Assembly (NCBI GenBank): GCA_031279835.1
Contig: JAITHV010000011.1
Location: forward strand, 1-44,458
Reading direction: 5' to 3'
DNA length: 44,458 bases
From: Coriobacteriales bacterium
GTDB lineage: Bacteria > Actinomycetota > Coriobacteriia > Coriobacteriales > UBA8131
Shown: positions 11,669 through 30,332 of the stretch, one piece after another
Numbering within the stretch: position 1 is the first letter of the stretch
Layout: the number at the start of each line of letters is the position of its first letter
The notes under the pieces: generated by a model
Databases searched by the model: none
What the model saw: the letters and a program-made list of their open reading frames with translations, nothing else
Told to the model about the DNA's origin: nothing
Made by a program: the position numbers and the translations under genes

Positions 11669-15283
<3,615 letters not shown>

Positions 15284-15358: not shown

Positions 15359-16651
15359 TCAGACGTAGCGCAGGCCGTTGACGATCTGCTCGAGGAGCCA
15401 CAGTGCGCCTTCCGGCCCATACAGCTGCTTGCGCGTGATGTCAAGGTAGCTGAGAGACGGAAACCCGATCTCGATCCCGCAGGTCGCATGGCCTTCCATG
15501 CGGCAGGCAGCGATGGTGTCGCCGTCTGCCAAGACGAGCTGAGAGGGCGTGCTCACGATACGGCGCCCCAGCGCTCCTTCGCTGCATATAGCCTCAAGAT
15601 AACGTCGCAACGCGTCACCATGACCAGAATCCTCGCCCGGCAAGAGCTCTATCGCCTGCGGCACCATGCCGAGGTACCCGCTCAGCCATCGCACGAACGG
15701 GTAAGCCATCGAAGGTGTCGCGCGCAGCGAGTAGTAGGCGCCTTTGGGCAGGCCAAGGCGTGAGGAAAAGCGCGCCAGGTGCAGATAGGCGCAGGCACGG
15801 GCCTTCTCCATCTGCAGGGCTGCCGCAGACGGGTCTGCGCCCAGGGCAGCGCAGACGTGCTGGACAAACGACTCGGTCGCCTCAAAGCCGATGGGCTGCC
15901 CCTCCTCTACGCACAGCCACGGCGTCCCCCACTCGACTGCAAGCTTGCGTGCCGTCAGCAGGCCGGTCTCGGGGCACACCACGACATTGAGCTCTGCCTC
16001 GCGAGCGCGACAGACCGTCTTGAGGCCGTCCCCAGCCCCCAGTGCGCTGATCACTTCGATGCCGCAGAGCATGAGCAGCTCGCGCAGCGTCGCGTAGTTG
16101 TGCTCGTAATGCTTCTGGCTCAGGTTCAGGCCGAGAAGGTTGACCGAGCAAGGAGTCTTGGGGACCTCGGGCAGGGCAAGCGTGTCGAGCATGCTGTTGA
16201 CCGCCAGCTGGAACCCGTCGCCATAGGCGCCTGACGAGCCGGTGTTCTCGATCGCGAGGTGCAAGACGTCGTCCAAGGCGCCGGCGAGCAGTCGTTCAAG
16301 GTCGTCGCCGATCAGGGCGGCGCCTGGCGAGTTGACCACTGCGATGAGCGAGAAGCCCTTTGAGGCCACCACGCGCAGCGTCTCGTCGAGCTTCTGTGCG
16401 CTGCCGAAGACGTAGTCGTCGCCGTCTAGGTACGTTGACGGCACGCGTGGCTGTCCGAAGTAACAGCGGTCGGCGTACGAGAGTGGGTCGTAGTCTGCCG
16501 AGCGCGGGAACTGCGCGTCAGACACGGCGCTGTGAAAAAACTTGCAGCCAGTCGGCCCGTTGAGCACCACGGCTGCGTCGGCCACGCCCTCGAAGGCGAA
16601 GATCGCGCCCGTCAGGCTGTCAGGAAAGGTGCTTGCGATATAGGTCGCCAT
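15359..16651 (-). CDS. Nitrogenase component 1-type protein (NifK/BchB-like partner subunit)
   Basis: The 430-residue protein has the nitrogenase MoFe-protein fold signature. LNGPTGCKFF near the N-terminus keeps the Cys (C36) that aligns with the second P-cluster ligand of NifK. The other two usual ligands appear to be Ser: S12 in DSLTGA and S108 in NSPGAALIGDDLERL. The end, IEIGFPSLSYLD plus a Gly-Pro-Glu-Gly-Ala segment, is typical of component 1 subunits. It overlaps the upstream fused gene by about 32 bp. ATG 16651 follows GGAGG; a GTG at 16654 is also possible. Predicted to pair with the NifD half of the fusion, completing one 4Fe-4S cluster (three Cys from D, one from K). Substrate unknown. 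Confidence 0.85.
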   Translation of the reverse strand: MATYIASTFPDSLTGAIFAFEGVADAAVVLNGPTGCKFFHSAVSDAQFPRSADYDPLSYADRCYFGQPRVPSTYLDGDDYVFGSAQKLDETLRVVASKGFSLIAVVNSPGAALIGDDLERLLAGALDDVLHLAIENTGSSGAYGDGFQLAVNSMLDTLALPEVPKTPCSVNLLGLNLSQKHYEHNYATLRELLMLCGIEVISALGAGDGLKTVCRAREAELNVVVCPETGLLTARKLAVEWGTPWLCVEEGQPIGFEATESFVQHVCAALGADPSAAALQMEKARACAYLHLARFSSRLGLPKGAYYSLRATPSMAYPFVRWLSGYLGMVPQAIELLPGEDSGHGDALRRYLEAICSEGALGRRIVSTPSQLVLADGDTIAACRMEGHATCGIEIGFPSLSYLDITRKQLYGPEGALWLLEQIVNGLRYV

Positions 16652-18920
16652 CACGCCTCCATCCTTCCTCGATGTCTATGCGCATCATGTCTGCCCAACG
16701 AGACGCCCGGTAAATCCCTGAGAGAAAGCCCGCGTCGGGGCACAGCGGTATCGTGTCCATAACCACCCCGGTCAAGTCGTCAGAGAACAGGTAGTTGCTG
16801 ATAAGGACGTCGGGGTCGATGTCGCGCACCTCTGCGGTGCGCTCCAGGGCGTCGAACTCCAGTTCAGTCTGCAGCACTTGGATCTGATCGATGAAGCGGC
16901 TCACAAAGCGGTTTTCTTGTGAATATGCGAGTATGCCCACATAGGCAATTTGCATGCCGAGGTCCAAGGCGGTGGACAAGATCCAGTCGATGTTGTGGTT
17001 GAAGGTCACTATCATGAGCCTGCGGCCTTCGAGGATGGGCCGCAGCTGCTCGACCAGCGCGTCATAGCGCCTTTGAAACGTCTCCACGATGCCCGACACG
17101 GCGTCCTCGCGGCCATAGCGCGCGGCAAGCTCGGCAACCCAGGCCTGGCTCTCGGCAAAGCCGATCGGCATGGCCTTGTCGAAGAAGACCGCGCCGAACT
17201 CCTCTTGCAAGTAGTCTCGCAGGCCGCGCCCCATGTAGTCCTCGTTCGCAAGGAGGTTGAGCGGCGCCTTCATGAAGCCGCGCAGCTGCTCGTAGCTGGT
17301 CTCACAGATAAAGCGGCAGTTGACCCGAAGGCCGAGCTGGACAAGCACCTCGGTCACGAAGTCGAGATTGCCTTCGGTCGCGTTCGCGATGGTCTTCTCG
17401 GCAACGATGTTCACGAGGTCGGGCTCGGTGCTGACGCCGCGCTCGATCAGTTCCTCGGCGATGTGCTGGTAGGCGAGAAAGATGCCTTGGAGATGATCGC
17501 CCGTCAGGTTTCCGTCGGCAGCAAGGGGTATGACGCGCGTCTGGTCGTTGCCGAGGGCGCGCGTTGCCTCAATGTCTTCGCCGATGATGCCACTCGGGCA
17601 GGTGGAGACCACAAAAACGGCGGGCGGACGACACGCCACAGCCTGCTCCACGCGCGCGCGCAGCTTGTCGCTGCCTCCAAACACCATGACGGCCTCGCTC
17701 ATATCGGTACTGAAGATGGGAGGCGCCGTCAGCATCGGCAAGACCGTGCCGCGCTCAAGGAGGTGGCGGCGCGAGAGCGACGTGATCGTCTGAAAGGCGA
17801 TATGCGCGCAGCTCTGTGGCCCGTGCGCGACGCTCAGGCAGTCGGCGAGCTGTGTGGTGATGGAGAGAACCCCGTTGAAGGCACAGCCGTGCAGCGGCTC
17901 CTTGGCTGCGACGCTCTTAGAGACGAGCGGGCTGGAAGCAGGCGGCGCGGGCGCGGCGCGGAACACGTCGCCTCCGGAGGCGCCGTTGCTGTTGTCAGCG
18001 TAGGCATCGCTGCTGTCGGTGTGGGCAGGCACTTCGCAGGTTGGCGCAGGCACTTCGCAGGTTGGCGCAGGCGCGGCTCTCTTTGGTGCGGGCGTGAAGG
18101 ACGTCGGCGGCCTTCTCCCCTCCAAAACGCACTCTTCCAGCGCCCGGTCGCCAAGCGGGCGCGCATGGCACATGGCCGAGTCGTCGCACATCCTCTCGGC
18201 GAGCGCGCGCAGCGTCTCGGCCAGCGCAGAGCCTGGCGTGTGCTCAACAATGCAGCGCATGGCGCGCTCGCTGGCTGCGAAGGTCTCGTCTCGCGGCAGT
18301 GCGGCGACGATCGGCAGGCCTGCCGCTTCGGCGAATCGCTCAACCCGCTCAAGCTCGCCGGATCCTCCTCGCGCGTTGAAGACCAGGCCGCCGACGCGGC
18401 CGGCCTCTGCCTCGTAGTTCTGCATGCCGCGCAGGATGTTGTTTGCCGCGTATATGCTCATAAACTCGCCGGAGGTGACGATGTAGACGCGGTCGGCGTA
18501 CTCGTTGCGTATGGGGACTGCGAAGCCGCCACAGACCACGTCGCCGAGCACGTCGTAGAGAATGACGTCCCAGTCGCGCCCGAACACCCCTAGGCGCTCC
18601 AAGAGCTCGAAGGTGGTGAGAATGCCGCGCCCTGCACAGCCGACGCCGGGCTCTGGGCCGCCCGCCTCAACGCAATGCACGCCGAAGGCGCCCACGCGCA
18701 CGATGTCGTCGGCCGCGTGCTCTCCCGGCGGCGCGTCGCGTATATAGTCGAGCACCGTCGGAGGAGAGGCGCCGTGGAGCAGCAGGCGCGTCGAGTCGTG
18801 CTTGGGGTCGCAGCCGACTTGCAGCACGCGCTTGCCGAGCGCGCCCATCGCCGCAGCCACATTGGCCGCAATAGTGGACTTCCCTATCCCACCCTTACCA
18901 TAGAGCGCAATTTGTGACAT
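16620..18920 (-). CDS. NifH-NifD fusion: nitrogenase-like Fe protein joined to a component 1 subunit
   Basis: A 766-residue fusion. Residues 1-~265 are a complete Fe protein: P-loop GKGGIGKST (8-16), GCDPKHDSTRLLLHG, PGVGCAGRG (C95, with Arg98 at the ADP-ribosylation position) and DVLGDVVCGGFAVPIR (C130); C95 and C130 are the bridging-cluster ligands. Residues ~270-340 form a Pro/Ala/Ser-rich linker with a duplicated PAPTCEV. Residues ~341-766 are NifD-like: HGCAFNG (C346), HGPQSC (C371) and STCPSGIIGEDIEA (C441) match the three P-cluster Cys. At the FeMo-cofactor Cys position (LNLLANED, near 554-561) there is no Cys, so a nitrogenase active site is unlikely. ATG 18920 has AAGGAG 6 nt upstream. 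Family relatives include BchL/N, CfbC/D and MarH/D; the substrate here is unknown. Confidence 0.9.
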   Translation of the reverse strand: MSQIALYGKGGIGKSTIAANVAAAMGALGKRVLQVGCDPKHDSTRLLLHGASPPTVLDYIRDAPPGEHAADDIVRVGAFGVHCVEAGGPEPGVGCAGRGILTTFELLERLGVFGRDWDVILYDVLGDVVCGGFAVPIRNEYADRVYIVTSGEFMSIYAANNILRGMQNYEAEAGRVGGLVFNARGGSGELERVERFAEAAGLPIVAALPRDETFAASERAMRCIVEHTPGSALAETLRALAERMCDDSAMCHARPLGDRALEECVLEGRRPPTSFTPAPKRAAPAPTCEVPAPTCEVPAHTDSSDAYADNSNGASGGDVFRAAPAPPASSPLVSKSVAAKEPLHGCAFNGVLSITTQLADCLSVAHGPQSCAHIAFQTITSLSRRHLLERGTVLPMLTAPPIFSTDMSEAVMVFGGSDKLRARVEQAVACRPPAVFVVSTCPSGIIGEDIEATRALGNDQTRVIPLAADGNLTGDHLQGIFLAYQHIAEELIERGVSTEPDLVNIVAEKTIANATEGNLDFVTEVLVQLGLRVNCRFICETSYEQLRGFMKAPLNLLANEDYMGRGLRDYLQEEFGAVFFDKAMPIGFAESQAWVAELAARYGREDAVSGIVETFQRRYDALVEQLRPILEGRRLMIVTFNHNIDWILSTALDLGMQIAYVGILAYSQENRFVSRFIDQIQVLQTELEFDALERTAEVRDIDPDVLISNYLFSDDLTGVVMDTIPLCPDAGFLSGIYRASRWADMMRIDIEEGWRRDGDLYRKHLS
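18025..18072 (-). repeat. Tandem 21-bp duplication in the NifH-NifD linker
   Basis: A 21-bp unit occurs twice in direct tandem (18025-18045 and 18046-18066), with identity continuing to 18072. It encodes the doubled PAPTCEV heptapeptide, adding one Cys per copy. The exact DNA identity suggests a recent slippage duplication. Confidence 0.85.
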
Positions 18921-18950
18921 GTGTCTCCTTAAATTCGTCAATACGGCAGC

Positions 18951-19112: not shown

Positions 19113-21221
19113 TCAGTGCTCGAGAACATAGGCGACAAAAGCGTCTGGCTCCAACGGCCTGCTGAAGTAGTATCCCTGGAAGTACCGGCACCCGATTGCC
19201 GTGAGCGCCTCGACCTGCGCGGCCGTCTCAACGCCTTCTACAATGATCTTGAGGTCGAGCTGGCCGGCAAGCTGGACGATGGATCGCACGATCTCCTGCT
19301 GGCGTACGTCGTCTGCGATGTCACTCACGAGCGAAGTGTCTATCTTCACCGAGGACACGCCGTAATCCGTGATATAGGTCAGCGACGAATAGCCCATGCC
19401 CATGTCGTCAATGGACAGGCTCACGCCCTGTGCGCGCAGGTCTTTGAACAGGTGCTGCATCGTAGTGCCCGACCGCACCGCCACGTGCTCGGTTATCTCG
19501 AGCTCGAGCTCGCCCTCGGCGATCCCGTGCTTGTTAAGCAGGCTGCCGATGAAGGCCGGGAACTCAGGGTCTTGAGCCAGGTGGCGCGGGTTGAGGTTCA
19601 CCGACAACACCGGCGGCGCAATGCCGAGCGCCTTCCAGCGCGCAAGCTCGGCGATGCCGACGCCTGCCACCCAACGCCCGAGCTCGACCGAGAGGCCTGC
19701 CTCATCGGTCATTTCGACAAGCACGACGGGCGACACGGCGCCGTGCTCAGGGTGCGTCCAACGCAAAAGGGCCTCGGCGCCGACGACGCGCCCCGCCGCG
19801 TCGGTCTTTGGCTGATAGACGAGGCGGAAGGGCAGTTGTCCCGAGTCGAAGTACTCATGGAGCTCGACGGCAAACTCGCGGGCGGTGTCGCCCAGCGCGT
19901 CGCGCCGCATGAGCAGCGAGGACTGCTCGTTTTCTGCCGCGTCGAGCGCTACAGCCTTGAACCGGTCGAAGCGCGCGCGGTCGATCGCCTGGTTGCGACG
20001 CTTGACCCAGCGCACGAAGGGCAGGTAGACAAGCACCGACACCGCGAGACACACGCCTTGCAGCAGCGCGCCCGCCACTGAGCCGGTTGCCAGGTAGCCG
20101 GATGCGACAACCGGTGTCGTCCAGCCTGGGCTTGCCGTTATCGGCGGCACGATCCCTGAGCCGAAGGCAACAAGGCACAGCGCGGCGTTGAGGAGCGGCA
20201 CGCCGACGAAGGGCACGAGAACAAACGGGTTGAAGACGAGTGGCAGCCCGTAAAGCAAGGTCTCGTTGACGTTGAGCAGCGAGGGGAACACCGAGGCCTT
20301 GGCAATGCGCCGCCCATGCTGGCGCGAGCCGACGATGAGCAGCGCGGCCAACAGCCCGAGCGTGGCGCCACAACCGCCCAGGTTGATGAAGCTGAGGTAG
20401 AACTCCTTGCTGGCGAACAGCGTCTCGCCCGGCAGCGCCCCCGCGCCGGCCGCAAGCGACGGGAAGGTCGATATCACCGTGTCGGTGCCGTGCACGCCAA
20501 AGAACCACAAAAGCTGCGACAAGAACACGGTGCCAAGCACCGAGAGCGGGTTGTCTGAGATGAGAAACTCTTGGGCAAATGCCCCGAACGCCTTGCTCGC
20601 CGCGTCGATCTCAAAGACCTCGACGTACAGCACCCGCGCGACGGCAAAGGCAGCGAGGGTCGCCGCGAGGGGAAATATGGAAGCGAAAGCCGAGCGCACC
20701 TGAAGGTTGGCGAAGCGCCATGCCATGCGATTGGTCACCAGGCGCCGCCACAGGCGAGCGCTCGCAAAAAACAGGGAGGTTGCGGCCAACGCGGTAGCCA
20801 GCGCATAGAAGACGCCCGTCCTGCCGGGATGCGGAAAGTCAAGGACGGTGTCGCCGGGAGCGTCCCACACGAAGGCCGCGACATAGCAGGCAAATGCCGT
20901 GAACATCACGACGAAGCGGTTTGTCTCCCCCTTCTTGACAAGCTGGTCCTCACCAGCGAGCTCAAGGCTGACCGAAAGCAGCGCGGCAAGCCCCACGACC
21001 TCAAGCGTAGCGAACTTGACGGCAGCAGTAGCCGACATCCAGTAGCCGTTGGTCATGGCGTTGAGGAAGTCATGGAACGGCGGCACCGGCAGGCCGGCGA
21101 GCGCGGTCGCGAAGGCACCGATAAGGACCACGGGTATGATGTTGACAAGCCCGTTGCTGATCGAGCGGACGTAGCGGTTGTCCGCAAAAGCTGATGCGAC
21201 TGTCTCAGGCACCCTGGGCAT
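19113..21221 (-). CDS. PTS EIIC (cellobiose-type) permease fused to an EAL c-di-GMP phosphodiesterase
   Basis: A 702-residue fusion. Residues ~1-430 are a lactose/cellobiose-family EIIC domain with about ten membrane segments and the signature NVNETLLYGLPLVFNPFVLV, plus FYLSFINLGGCGATLGLL. Residues ~460-700 are an EAL domain with its catalytic set intact: AEALLRW (EAL), NLNPRHLA (Asn), LEITEH (Glu), IDDMGMGYSSL (Asp-Asp), KIDTSLV (Lys), IVEGVE (Glu) and YFQGYYFSRPL. Predicted to hydrolyse c-di-GMP, perhaps in response to a sugar bound by the EIIC half; no EIIA or EIIB gene is in the window, so transport is doubtful. ATG 21221 is preceded at 8 nt by TATTAT, so it may be leaderless; an open frame extends to 21290. 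Confidence 0.9.
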   Translation of the reverse strand: MPRVPETVASAFADNRYVRSISNGLVNIIPVVLIGAFATALAGLPVPPFHDFLNAMTNGYWMSATAAVKFATLEVVGLAALLSVSLELAGEDQLVKKGETNRFVVMFTAFACYVAAFVWDAPGDTVLDFPHPGRTGVFYALATALAATSLFFASARLWRRLVTNRMAWRFANLQVRSAFASIFPLAATLAAFAVARVLYVEVFEIDAASKAFGAFAQEFLISDNPLSVLGTVFLSQLLWFFGVHGTDTVISTFPSLAAGAGALPGETLFASKEFYLSFINLGGCGATLGLLAALLIVGSRQHGRRIAKASVFPSLLNVNETLLYGLPLVFNPFVLVPFVGVPLLNAALCLVAFGSGIVPPITASPGWTTPVVASGYLATGSVAGALLQGVCLAVSVLVYLPFVRWVKRRNQAIDRARFDRFKAVALDAAENEQSSLLMRRDALGDTAREFAVELHEYFDSGQLPFRLVYQPKTDAAGRVVGAEALLRWTHPEHGAVSPVVLVEMTDEAGLSVELGRWVAGVGIAELARWKALGIAPPVLSVNLNPRHLAQDPEFPAFIGSLLNKHGIAEGELELEITEHVAVRSGTTMQHLFKDLRAQGVSLSIDDMGMGYSSLTYITDYGVSSVKIDTSLVSDIADDVRQQEIVRSIVQLAGQLDLKIIVEGVETAAQVEALTAIGCRYFQGYYFSRPLEPDAFVAYVLEH

Positions 21222-21235: not shown

Positions 21236-21325
21236 GCGCATGAAAAGGTCGCGGGCGGGCGCGGCACTGACAGGGTTGACAGGTGGCCAACGTCAGAATG
21301 AACGAACCATCATTAAGCGGATCTA

Positions 21326-21403: not shown

Positions 21404-22498
21404 ATGGACAGCTTGCGACACACCGTGATGATGGTGGACGACAATGTGACCAACCTGACGCTTGGCAAAAACCTGCTCAAGGAAGTCTACGACGTGTACA
21501 CGGTCCCCTCGGCAAAAAAAATGCTCGACCTTCTCGACAAGCTTCAGCCTGACCTCATTTTGCTCGACATCGAGATGCCCGAGATGAACGGGTACGAGGC
21601 CATCAAAAAGCTCAAGTCAGACCCGCGCTTCGCAGACATCCCGGTCGTCTTTTTGACCGCGCGCGCAGACGAGGGCTCCGAGATGGAGGGCCTGAGCCTT
21701 GGCGCCGTCGACTACATCTACAAGCCGTTCTCAGGGCCCCTGCTGATTCAGCGCATCAGAAACCATCTGATCACCGTCGAGCAGCGCAGGGACCTCGAGC
21801 GCTACAACCACGACCTCGAGAGCCTGGTCGAGCAGAAGGCAGCGCAGGTCAACGAGCTCAAGAACACCGTGATCGCCTCCATCGCGGAGCTGGTCGAAAG
21901 CCGCGACAACGTGACGGGAAACCACATCATGCGCACCCAGGCCTACCTGAAGCTATTGCTCGACGAGCTCACCGGGCAAGGAATCTACACAGACCTGACA
22001 CGCGAGTGGAACTTTGACTTCCTGTTCACGGCGGCCCAGCTGCATGACGTAGGAAAAATAGCGATAAGCGACACCATCCTCAACAAGCCGGACCGACTCA
22101 CGGCTGAGGAGTTCGAGATAATGAAGACGCATGCGCCGCTCGGTGTCAAGATAATCAACACCATTGAGGGCAAGACCAAGGAGCATGCCTTTCTCCACCA
22201 TGCCAAGACCATTGCAGGCACCCATCATGAGAAGTGGGACGGCACGGGCTATCCGAGCGGCCTGAAAGGCAAGAACATACCGCTCGAAGGGCGGCTCATG
22301 GCCATCGCCGACGTCTACGACGCGCTCATCTCGGTGCGCCCCTACAAGAAGGCGCTTCCCATCCCCGAGGCAGAGCACATCATCGTGGAAGGCGCCGGCA
22401 CCCACTTTGACCCGGTGCTCGTTGGCGTGTTCCAGACCATCGCCGACCGCTTTGCGAACATCGCCCAAGCGCATCGAGACAGCCCGGCCTGCAGCTGA
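21404..22498 (+). CDS. Response regulator with HD-GYP c-di-GMP phosphodiesterase domain (copy 1)
   Basis: A 364-residue two-domain protein. The REC domain (about 1-125) has the acidic pair in MMVDDN, the phospho-Asp in LILLDIEMPEMNGYEA, the Thr in FLTAR and the Lys in YIYKPFSG. The HD-GYP domain (about 165-355) has LHDVGKIAISDTILNKP (HD), HAKTIAGTHHEKWDGTGYP (HH and GYP variant) and ADVYDALISVRPYK. Such proteins cleave c-di-GMP to GMP when the receiver is phosphorylated. ATG 21404 has AAAGGGG 10 nt upstream; the frame stays open to 21365. It is followed by a close paralog, and no histidine kinase gene is in the window. Confidence 0.92.
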   Translation: MDSLRHTVMMVDDNVTNLTLGKNLLKEVYDVYTVPSAKKMLDLLDKLQPDLILLDIEMPEMNGYEAIKKLKSDPRFADIPVVFLTARADEGSEMEGLSLGAVDYIYKPFSGPLLIQRIRNHLITVEQRRDLERYNHDLESLVEQKAAQVNELKNTVIASIAELVESRDNVTGNHIMRTQAYLKLLLDELTGQGIYTDLTREWNFDFLFTAAQLHDVGKIAISDTILNKPDRLTAEEFEIMKTHAPLGVKIINTIEGKTKEHAFLHHAKTIAGTHHEKWDGTGYPSGLKGKNIPLEGRLMAIADVYDALISVRPYKKALPIPEAEHIIVEGAGTHFDPVLVGVFQTIADRFANIAQAHRDSPACS

Positions 22499-22623: not shown

Positions 22624-22763
22624 GTATGTGGTCGTTAATCGTGCGGCAGAGGGGGCAGTTTGGGGACTGCGTCTGCTAGGATGTGCGACCTGTTCCGCAG
22701 CTATCAGTGCTTCAGCGCCCGGGGGCCAGCTTCTCGTCTCAGGGTCGAAAGGGGTTGTTAACC

Positions 22764-23897
22764 ATGAGTGACATCCGCAACAAGGTCTTGTTGGTAGACG
22801 ACAATTTGACCAACCTCTCCATGGGAAAGAACATACTCAAAAACATCTACGAAGTCTACACGGTGTCGTCTGCGCAGCGCATGTTCTCGCTCCTCGAGAA
22901 GATACAGCCGGACCTTATCCTCCTCGACATCGAGATGCCCGAGATGAACGGGTACGAGGCCATAAAGAAGCTCAAGTCCGACTCGCACTTCGCCGACATT
23001 CCCGTCATTTTTGTGACGGCGCGCTCAGACGAAGGCTCGGAGATGGAGGGGCTGAGCCTCGGCGCCATCGACTACATTTACAAGCCGTTTTCGGGCGCAC
23101 TGATCATACAGCGCATCAAGAACCACCTCATCACCGTCGAGCAGCGAAAGACGCTCGAGCGCTACAACCACAACCTCGAGAGCGCGGTGCGGGAGAAGAG
23201 CGAACAGGTCCACGAGCTCAAGAACACCGTCATCACCTCCATCGCAGAGATGGTCGAGAGCCGCGACAACGTGACGGGAAACCACATCATGCGCACCCAG
23301 GCCTACCTGAAGCTATTGCTCGACGAGCTCGTTGAACAGGGCATTTACTCCGACGTGACGAGAGGCTGGAACTTCGACTTCCTGTTCACAGCGGCCCAGC
23401 TGCACGACGTGGGAAAGATATCGATAAGCGACACCATCCTCAACAAGCCGGATCGCCTCACGGCTGAGGAGTTCGAGATAATGAAGACGCACGCGTTGCT
23501 CGGCGTCAAGATAATCAACTCCATTGAGGGCAACACGCGCGAGCACGAGTTCCTGCGCCATGCGAAGACTATTGCAGGCACCCATCATGAGAAGTGGGAC
23601 GGCACAGGCTACCCGTACGGCCTCAAGGGCAGGGAGATACCGCTCGAGGGGCGTCTCATGGCAATCGCCGACGTCTACGACGCGCTCATCTCGGTGCGCC
23701 CCTACAAAGAGGCCCTGCCCATCCCCGAGGCCGAGCGCATCATAGTCGAGGGCGCCGGCTCCCACTTTGACCCGGTTCTCGTCGGCGTGTTCCAGACGGT
23801 TGCGAGTCGTTTTGCGCACATTGCCCAAAACTACCGCGACAGCTCCCCAGAAGGCGAGACGCCGCACACGCCCCTGGAGCGCGCGCGCGTGGCATAG
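22764..23897 (+). CDS. Response regulator with HD-GYP domain (copy 2, paralog of the preceding gene)
   Basis: A 377-residue protein with the same REC plus HD-GYP layout as copy 1 and very similar throughout: phospho-Asp in LLDIEMPEMNGYEA, the HD pair in LHDVGKISISD, HHEKWDGTGYPYG and ADVYDALISVRPYK. Residues diverge mainly in the linker (about 130-160) and at the C-terminus, where this copy adds a short tail. ATG 22764 (MSDIRNKVLLVDDN) has AAAGGGG about 11 nt upstream. Predicted c-di-GMP phosphodiesterase under two-component control. Tandem duplication with later sequence exchange is suggested by a 72-bp identical block shared with copy 1. Confidence 0.92.
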   Translation: MSDIRNKVLLVDDNLTNLSMGKNILKNIYEVYTVSSAQRMFSLLEKIQPDLILLDIEMPEMNGYEAIKKLKSDSHFADIPVIFVTARSDEGSEMEGLSLGAIDYIYKPFSGALIIQRIKNHLITVEQRKTLERYNHNLESAVREKSEQVHELKNTVITSIAEMVESRDNVTGNHIMRTQAYLKLLLDELVEQGIYSDVTRGWNFDFLFTAAQLHDVGKISISDTILNKPDRLTAEEFEIMKTHALLGVKIINSIEGNTREHEFLRHAKTIAGTHHEKWDGTGYPYGLKGREIPLEGRLMAIADVYDALISVRPYKEALPIPEAERIIVEGAGSHFDPVLVGVFQTVASRFAHIAQNYRDSSPEGETPHTPLERARVA

Positions 23898-28550: not shown

Positions 28551-30332
28551 CTAGTCATCGTCGTCAGAACCGGACGTGTAGTAAAGGAAGAAGTCGTCTT
28601 GCGCGTCCGCGTCAACGGCATCAGGCAGCGCTGAGGGCTGCGACGAGCTGAGCGCGTCTGCAGGGACGCCTTCTGGTGCAGTTGAGGGAGCAGCCGGTTG
28701 AGGGGCTGGCTCTGGCTCTGTGGGGGACGTGACAAGAGGAGCCGGGACGACTACTGCCGATTGCTGAGTGAAGTACTCGTCGAGAAGGTCGTCCTCCGTG
28801 CCTTCAACGACCTCGCTGCTTGACGAGGCGAAATCAAAATAACCAGTGCCGGGAATCCCAAAGTTTCGGCGGTCGTCCACATAGGGGGCTGCCTTGAAGT
28901 AGGATGACTCGCCCATATTGACCGCTACAGTCCTAGTCTGCGCTTCTGTTTTTTGCTCGTAGCTTCCTTCGTCTGGCTCGAAGTCAGGGTCGAAACTCAT
29001 CCCGGCGTTGACCGGAGTGAAGGACACAGTTGACCCGAGATCTTCAGGCGCTGAGGAGACCGACAGCTGCGGCACGTGGGGATGCGCCTCAGGCACTTCA
29101 TCCTGCTGCAGAGTGTCCGAGGTTGCCTCCAGCATCGTCTCTTGCTCGTCGAGCGGCTTTTCGGCAACCGGCGTGTCAAATGGCTCATAGGCGATATGGC
29201 TGTCGAAGAACGCCTGGTCAGGATCGGGCTCTTGAGGCGGCATGCTTGCGTCGACTTGCTTCGCAGAGGTGTACGCCGGGCGATAAAAAGCGACTTCGGG
29301 CGCTGGCGCAGGCGCTGGCTCTGGTTGCGGATCGGGCATTGATTGCGGCTCGGGCTCGGGTTCCGGCTCGGGCGTTGGCTCGTGCACGGGCTCGGGCGCT
29401 GGCTCGGGCTCGGGCGCTGGCTCCGGCTCGGGCTCGGGCGCTGGCTCCGGTTGCTGCACCTGCTCAGGCTCTGGTTCCGGCACGGGCTCCGGCTCGGGAT
29501 CAGGCGTTGGCTCCGGTTGCTGCACTTGCTCAGGCTCCGGTTCCGGCACGGGCTCCGGCTCGCGCACGGGCGCTGGCTCGTGCACGGGCTCGGGCGCTGG
29601 CTCCGGTTGCTGCACCTGCTCAGGCTCGGGCTCGAGCATTGGCGCAGGCTCAAGTCCCGAGAACAGGTCAGGGAACGACTCAAAGAACGAGTCGTCGCCC
29701 GCCACCGTCTGTTCTGAGGCAATAAAGCTGTCGTCCTGCGTAGGACCGGCATACGACGCAAAGAACTCAGTGGGGGGTTCCCCAACTGGCTGCTCTCCCC
29801 CCCCGGGTGCATACTCAGGATACGAGGACGGAACACCCGCCTGCTCTTCCACAGGCGCATGGGTGCCATAGCCTGCTTCTGCCTCGGCAGCAGCTGCAGC
29901 CCTCAGCACCTCTTCGGCCTCGTCTGCGCGACGACCAGCACGTCGCTTGCCAAAGACGCTGCGAATCTTGTCACTCGCCGAGTTGAGCAGGTTCAAAGGC
30001 GCGTCAGTGATCTCGGCTACCTTGCCCACAGCCTCAGAGGCCACGTCGGTGATGTCGCTGATATTAGCGAGAATCTGGTCGGCGCGCATTATCTCTAAGC
30101 TCGCCGCATCGACCATCAACGACACGCGCTCAAGCAGCGGGTCGACCTTTTGGATCGCCGGCTGGAGCTCTTGTATGGTTGCGTTGACCTTCTCGATGGT
30201 AGGCCGCAGCTCGTCTATGGTTTTGTTGACCTTGCGCACTGTGGCGATCAGGTTCACAACCAAGACAATTAGTACAATCACAAACAGGGCAATGACCAAA
30301 AAGAGTATCTGAAGTATCAGCTCTGTGGTCAT
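28551..30332 (-). CDS. DUF948-like membrane protein with long Pro/Glu repeat region
   Basis: A 593-residue protein of unknown role. It begins with one membrane segment (about residues 5-30) then a coiled-coil-like stretch with regular TIxxxxPxIxKV spacing, resembling DUF948 envelope proteins. Residues ~230-345 are a low-complexity region built of [14 protein letters not shown] and EQVQQPEP units. The C-terminal third is acidic, with a short conserved-looking block [17 protein letters not shown] and GYFDF. The repeat region could span part of the cell wall or act as a flexible spacer. Start ATG with AAAGGGGG upstream; an extended -10 (TGCTATTAT) is at 30368-30376. Confidence 0.75.
29300..29650 (-). 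repeat. Imperfect hexanucleotide repeats encoding Pro-Glu/Pro-Val runs
   Basis: About 350 bp of degenerate GGCTCG/GGCTCC units (plus-strand view) that encode the Glu-Pro-rich region of the DUF948-like protein, with longer duplicated blocks such as TGCACCTGCTCAGG recurring three times. This is a site prone to length variation between strains. Confidence 0.8.

Follow-up and report, generated by a model that had tools for sequence, protein, structure and literature searches.

An EIIC permease domain of the PTS is joined in one chain to an EAL phosphodiesterase domain with a complete active site, in a genome from which every PTS part sought is absent; throughout the fusions compared, the sugar-site residues of the permease are kept and a loop signature carried by stand-alone EIICs is lost. 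The protein is probably a transporter-derived, ligand-gated receptor, that is, a former group translocator which has come off the PTS and drives its EAL phosphodiesterase through a long helix. On a broader scale we think the chances slightly better than even that one widespread EIIC clade left the PTS in this way to become receptors, losing the partner loop, keeping the sugar site, gaining an EAL domain and persisting PTS-free as the only EIIC of its genome.

Domain organization of the EIIC-EAL protein

The gene lies on the reverse strand of the window, by which we mean the whole stretch of 44,458 nucleotides that was analysed (Table 1). An in-frame TTG upstream of the ATG would extend the protein to a 725-aa version, and a true start at the ATG or later is likelier because the alignment of relatives begins only at about residue 8. 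Both halves are recognized by Pfam, PTS_EIIC with E 5.9e-19 (68.7 bits against a cut-off of 30.7) and EAL with E 7.6e-62. The best-matching NCBIfam models for the EIIC half are the lactose/cellobiose families TIGR00410 and TIGR00359 (E 1.3e-54, residues 8-414), and a search of solved-structure sequences with this half returned ChbC (3qnq) as its sole match (E 4e-34). The score of 185.9 bits lies under the curated cut-offs of 236 (TIGR00410) and 434.45 (TIGR00359), so that 'cellobiose-type', the description given in an earlier sequence-only reading, serves as a label for the nearest relatives of the domain.

The EAL half matches many solved phosphodiesterases, the top match being 5m1t (E 3.8e-45). 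Nine residues which we take to be catalytic from EAL structures (E483, N542, E575, E578, D605, D606, K626, E662 and Q682) show no substitution in any of the 26 aligned sequences from the window's order, which include the window's own. They are also intact across the 47 fusions compared below, with one or two gaps in each column, as expected from two fragmented copies. The Pfam matches and this invariance confirm the initial claim of a PTS permease domain preceding an EAL domain with its catalytic residues intact.

Table 1. Features of the fusion gene and its surroundings, with positions in the window.
Feature	Position	Strand	Evidence and remarks
EIIC-EAL fusion protein	19113..21221	-	702 aa from ATG; alternative TTG start at 21290
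PTS EIIC domain, lactose/cellobiose type (nearest relatives)	19980..21200	-	residues about 8-414; TIGR00410 8-414, PF02378 22-339, 3qnq alignment 8-408
TM4-TM5 loop, residues 162-181	20679..20738	-	signature [IV][KRN][ML]PxxVP absent; alignment with stand-alone EIICs
Codon of H244	20490..20492	-	aligned with H250 of ChbC; 3qnq alignment, counted by hand
Codon of E320 (N-x-N-E motif)	20262..20264	-	aligned with E334 of ChbC; 3qnq alignment, counted by hand
Linker, residues 403-464	19830..20015	-	predicted models and column counts; last TM helix unbroken 382-430, short helix 442-460
EAL phosphodiesterase domain	19155..19829	-	residues 465-689; PF00563; catalytic set complete; fold match 5m3c, Z 31.7
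Response regulator with HD-GYP-type domain	21404..22498	+	PF00072, PF13487; divergent from fusion gene
Second, tandem response regulator with HD-GYP-type domain	22758..23897	+	296/379 aligned positions identical to first
Pyruvate:ferredoxin oxidoreductase, single-chain	11693..15283	+	TIGR02176, 1867 bits
Nitrogenase-component-1 protein, second	15359..16654	-	adjoins the 767-aa ORF
767-aa ORF, NifH-type reductase domain and nitrogenase-component-1 domain in one chain	16620..18923	-	residues 4-266 and 347-726 respectively
593-aa ORF	28551..30332	-	no Pfam match at 1e-5

Distribution and phylogeny of the fusion

Sampling of the window's order (247 genomes) yielded 28 carriers of the fusion, full-length or split, 16 of them in the window's own family (f1, its own genome included) and 12 in a second family (f2). 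The f1 carriers are 57-93% complete, and the copies of two of them (G117 and G133) are in pieces. Another 25 genomes of the order contain full-length homologues, several of these on chromosomes assembled as one contig, which rules out both chance and an assembly artefact joining two genes. Among 391 sampled genomes of Clostridia, the class of Eisenbergiella tayi, a full-length fusion is found in 15, E. tayi included, and one more copy (G274) is broken at contig ends. Besides the copies in the order, a scan of named genomes gave at least five full-length ones, five being among the 80 loci kept; the carriers among the matches listed are Sporomusa ovata, E. tayi, Oscillospiraceae bacterium CE91-St43, a Clostridiales Family XIII MAG and an Azoarcus MAG, the copy in the last lying on a short contig and possibly misbinned.

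A single branch of the EIIC tree (support 100/98) separates the 47 fusions, without exception, from the other EIICs, and a quick EAL tree, from which pieces shorter than 190 aa were left out (two of the 47), likewise parts the 45 remaining fusion EALs from 90 others (SH-aLRT 99), with outgroups limited in both trees. Because the EIIC halves and the EAL halves each lie on one side of their tree, a single fusion event would be the simplest reading. Within the EIIC tree the f1 copies group with that of the Family XIII MAG and the f2 copies with those of Clostridia, and on the strength of these groupings transfer of the fusion between phyla is likely.

PTS components in genomes carrying the fusion

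No fusion genome of the order, out of 28, gave a match to Enzyme I (PF05524), control genomes matching as expected. Completeness is 90% or more and contamination 5% or less in 14 of the 28, and several consist of a single contig. Across the order Enzyme I scores above cut-off in 132 of the 247 genomes, none being a fusion genome; the association between fusion and Enzyme I absence (Fisher p 7e-11) is descriptive only, since related genomes are counted as independent. The search for EIIA and EIIB in the genomes of the order covered lactose-type IIA (PF02255) and PTS_IIB (PF02302), neither of which was found in any of the 28, and HPr was found in two of 30 relatives searched, eight of these 30 being fusion genomes and neither of the two belonging to f1. 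PTS_EIIC gives a single match per genome in all 28, and that match is always the fusion.

The window's own genome (2.0 Mb, 90.9% complete) returned no Enzyme I, HPr, PTS_IIB, lactose-type IIA or second EIIC, and on these searches a working cellobiose PTS elsewhere in it was rejected. The sequence-only reading had noted that EIIA and EIIB are missing from the window, and had suggested that the permease acts as a membrane sugar sensor. The observation is correct, no PTS family match being found among the other scanned proteins of the window, and the reasoning from it, weak when drawn from 44 kb out of 2.0 Mb, is borne out by the whole-genome search for PTS parts. EIIA or EIIB genes elsewhere, if shown to drive transport by this protein, had been named beforehand as evidence against the suggestion; PTS_IIB and lactose-type IIA were sought genome-wide and not found.

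Outside the order, 8 of the 15 Clostridia carriers (completeness not given) have Enzyme I, and so do four of the five carriers among the matches listed from the named scan, E. tayi being counted in both sets. Given carriers without Enzyme I in the order and carriers with it in the Bacillota, the fusion needs no PTS, and loss of the PTS is neither a condition for it nor part of its definition.

Residues kept and lost in the EIIC half

The EIIC halves of 47 fusions (28 from the order, 5 from named genomes and 14 from Clostridia) were compared with 33 stand-alone EIICs (15 from Bacillota and 18 from the order), with two duplicates (L123 and L128, of L027 and L038) and one gene that runs off its contig (L143) dropped from the counts. 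The Bacillota set consists of 14 of the best-scoring Clostridia loci and one from Sporomusa (L121), the order set of 18 of the 23 EIIC-only rows listed, and some of the stand-alone comparators are near-identical pairs. Seventeen of the 18 order comparators come from genomes with Enzyme I, the exception being a genome without a match that is 86% complete (G230).

H250 and E334 of ChbC, which correspond to H244 and E320 here, are presumably sugar-site residues. The glutamate is present in 47/47 fusions and 33/33 stand-alone EIICs, the histidine in 46 of the 47 fusions, 14 of the 15 Bacillota and 12 of the 18 order stand-alone proteins. N317, G282, G283, G285, G325, P327 and N331 are likewise found in all 47 fusions. 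Nineteen of the 20 invariant EIIC columns fall within residues 242-402, the half that holds the sugar site, and mean column information, which reaches 2.68 bits over residues 225-402, drops to 2.01 bits for the N-terminal half and to 1.65 bits for the loop; the linker and the N-terminal half vary widely among fusions. With the permease cut off from any PTS found and these sugar-site residues kept, sensing is favoured, and to that extent the proposal of a membrane sugar sensor is strengthened.

The loop between TM4 and TM5 presents the opposite picture. The motif [IV][KRN][ML]PxxVP is found there in all 33 stand-alone EIICs, and can also be read in ChbC (3qnq alignment). No fusion among the 47 has it, even where Enzyme I is encoded in the same genome. 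A proline at position 321, immediately after the site glutamate, is similarly frequent in stand-alone EIICs (31/33) and rare in fusions (6/47). The loop presumably faces the cytosol, to judge from the topology of the model with its N-in start and from its charge (three K+R, no D+E), and we infer that it is a site of EIIB docking or phosphotransfer. A search of the open-licence literature found no passage stating such a role for the TM4-TM5 loop of lactose/cellobiose EIICs.

Structural models and the linker

A model of the whole protein (mean pLDDT 83.4, pTM 0.69) returned mostly EAL chains in a fold search, with little information on the EIIC half, for which reason the EIIC domain and linker were modelled alone from 47 sequences (mean pLDDT 88.7, pTM 0.87). 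This second model aligns with ChbC (3qnq) at Z 23.5 over 315 positions and 10.7 Å, and with MalT (5iws) at Z 17.3 over 346 positions and 4.5 Å. ChbC was solved in an inward-facing and MalT in an outward-facing state, as stated in the available part of PMC6048161. Since the model is closer to MalT, it appears outward-like, and the 10.7 Å that separate it from ChbC may reflect a different state of the elevator.

In the predicted models the last TM helix runs unbroken into the linker and is followed by the second, short helix, which carries the motif R-x-D-x-[LIV]-G-x-x-A-R with G444 in 45 and A447 in 42 of the 47 sequences. This region looks like a signalling linker. Its DxxGxxAR resembles the second helix of HAMP domains. 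A Pfam HAMP search of ten linkers, at E up to 10, gave no match.

Genomic context

Two response regulators with HD-GYP-type domains lie divergently beside the fusion gene, so that three neighbouring proteins are of c-di-GMP-breakdown type, in a genome where GGDEF matches number just two. The regulators were considered as a conserved operon partner, and are missing from the short flanks of the other f1 loci; the sole HD trace in the short flanks of relatives in the order is a weaker match in one locus (L022). A whole-protein search of the window's genome at E <= 0.001 gave no second match, and the fusion thus looks like the only EAL protein detectable there by such a search. GGDEF matches number from 0 to 45 in each of the 28 order fusion genomes, with 0 solely in G117, which is 61% complete.

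Comparison of 17 neighbourhoods showed shared families nearly all within f2, plus one in 11 of them that by eye reads as ABC-type; no shared family was recognized by eye as PTS. In the f1 neighbourhoods (L176-L183) the neighbours of the fusion vary by genome, and no common sugar operon was seen. The starts of transaldolase-like proteins recur, by eye, in three of them (L179, L180 and L182).

The remainder of the window offers further observations. A NifH-type reductase domain and a nitrogenase-component-1 domain share one chain; its best NCBIfam models, CfbC and NifH, fall under cut-off, so that with the neighbouring component-1 protein it represents a nitrogenase-like system of unplaced type, adjoined by a single-chain pyruvate:ferredoxin oxidoreductase. 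An Rfam search of the window returned two tRNAs only.

A candidate mechanism and its alternatives

Structures show both EIIC and EAL domains as dimers, and the fusion would presumably form a dimer likewise. In the receptor that we favour, the EIIC half would bind a sugar, probably a disaccharide of the lactose/cellobiose/chitobiose class, and could not be served by a PTS. Sugar binding would shift the elevator-type transport domain, the movement would travel along the last TM helix into the cytoplasm and reach the EAL domains of the dimer, and the resulting change in the EAL dimer would raise or lower hydrolysis of c-di-GMP.

The retained transport half and sugar-site residues would also suit a dual-function facilitator, in which EIIC moves sugar down its gradient unphosphorylated and EAL reports on or controls the flux; mutations that uncouple PTS transport from phosphorylation are on record, to judge from the title of reference 34 in PMC12900739. 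This is unlikely, as the TM4-TM5 loop and the proline after the site glutamate, the latter present in 31/33 stand-alone EIICs, are changed in the fusions, and in the 17 neighbourhoods, inspected by eye, no family shared between loci was recognized as sugar-catabolic. The EIIC fold might instead be a scaffold, either a membrane anchor or a sensor of some lipid, membrane state, ion or unrelated small molecule. The high variability of linker and N-terminal half would be in keeping with such a role, but a mere anchor is not expected to keep N317, E320, G282-G283-x-G285, N331 and P327 in 47/47 fusions, and we regard this explanation, too, as rather improbable. There is a slim chance that the flow is reversed, with c-di-GMP bound or cleaved by EAL gating the permease; both halves are conserved and nothing in the sequence fixes the direction, yet with its catalytic set complete the EAL domain is more readily seen as an enzyme output than as a degenerate c-di-GMP receptor. 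A PTS phospho-relay input, with EIIC as a phosphoreceiver whose phosphorylation state controls EAL, in the wording of a 2022 review, is hardly credible and for the window's order is already contradicted unless an undetected Enzyme I exists, for although Enzyme I is present in some Clostridia fusion genomes, EIIC itself is not the receiver, EIIB handing the phosphate to the sugar held in EIIC (stated in the available part of PMC6048161), and 28/28 order fusion genomes are without an Enzyme I match.

If the receptor reading is right, a group translocator has become a receptor for sugar, and absence of the loop signature would provide a sequence test separating EIIC receptors from EIIC transporters, and thereby a means of finding receptors hidden among annotated 'PTS transporters'. 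What signals control most c-di-GMP enzymes is an open question. In this case the input domain combines a fold and a ligand class that are known with two pocket residues open to mutation, which makes the question of its signal directly testable, by mutation of those residues for instance.

The architecture itself is already known, and what is new is the PTS-free occurrence, the loop loss and the placement of the fusions on a single branch. The survey of C. difficile c-di-GMP enzymes by Bordeleau et al. in 2011 reportedly includes an EAL protein of PTS type, so that part of what is claimed here may have been described earlier. A search of the open-licence literature gave no report of PTS-free occurrence or of loop loss in EIIC-EAL fusions. 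It likewise gave no experiment on a PTS_EIIC/c-di-GMP fusion, PMC8846402 alone naming the pairing among the excerpts retrieved, and the excerpts of PMC2453333, PMC10513181 and PMC6016940 do not describe an EIIC-EAL fusion.

Comparison with known systems

The fusion shares with lactose/cellobiose EIICs (TIGR00410; ChbC, 3qnq) the fold, the sequence and the sugar-site histidine and glutamate. It differs from them in the attached EAL domain, in the loss of the loop signature in 47/47 cases and in a score below the family cut-off, and its 28 genomes in the order differ in having no Enzyme I, PTS_IIB or lactose-type IIA. With the EAL phosphodiesterases PA0575, MorA, DosP and MucR it shares the fold and the nine catalytic residues checked, whereas its input domain is a transporter fold. 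PMC8846402, in the passages available, lists PTS_EIIC as one of the domains rarely found in c-di-GMP proteins and describes it as a phosphoreceiver; the proteins meant have the same pair of domain names and are very probably of the same kind as the fusion, and the phosphoreceiver reading is challenged by an order that keeps EIIC-EAL without any Enzyme I match. The same passages describe EIIA-Glc and PdeS of Vibrio cholerae, where sugar status controls a c-di-GMP phosphodiesterase via the PTS; that control works through the PTS and EIIA phosphorylation, in contrast to the fusions of the order, beside which no PTS was found. A works-like analogue is provided by KsAmt5, an ammonium-transporter domain joined to a histidine kinase, whose Amt domain, according to the available part of PMC8534201, binds ammonium, moves it inefficiently and controls the fused kinase. 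Transporter family, ligand and output are all different from those of the EIIC-EAL fusion, and in KsAmt5 a transporter fold serves as the receptor.
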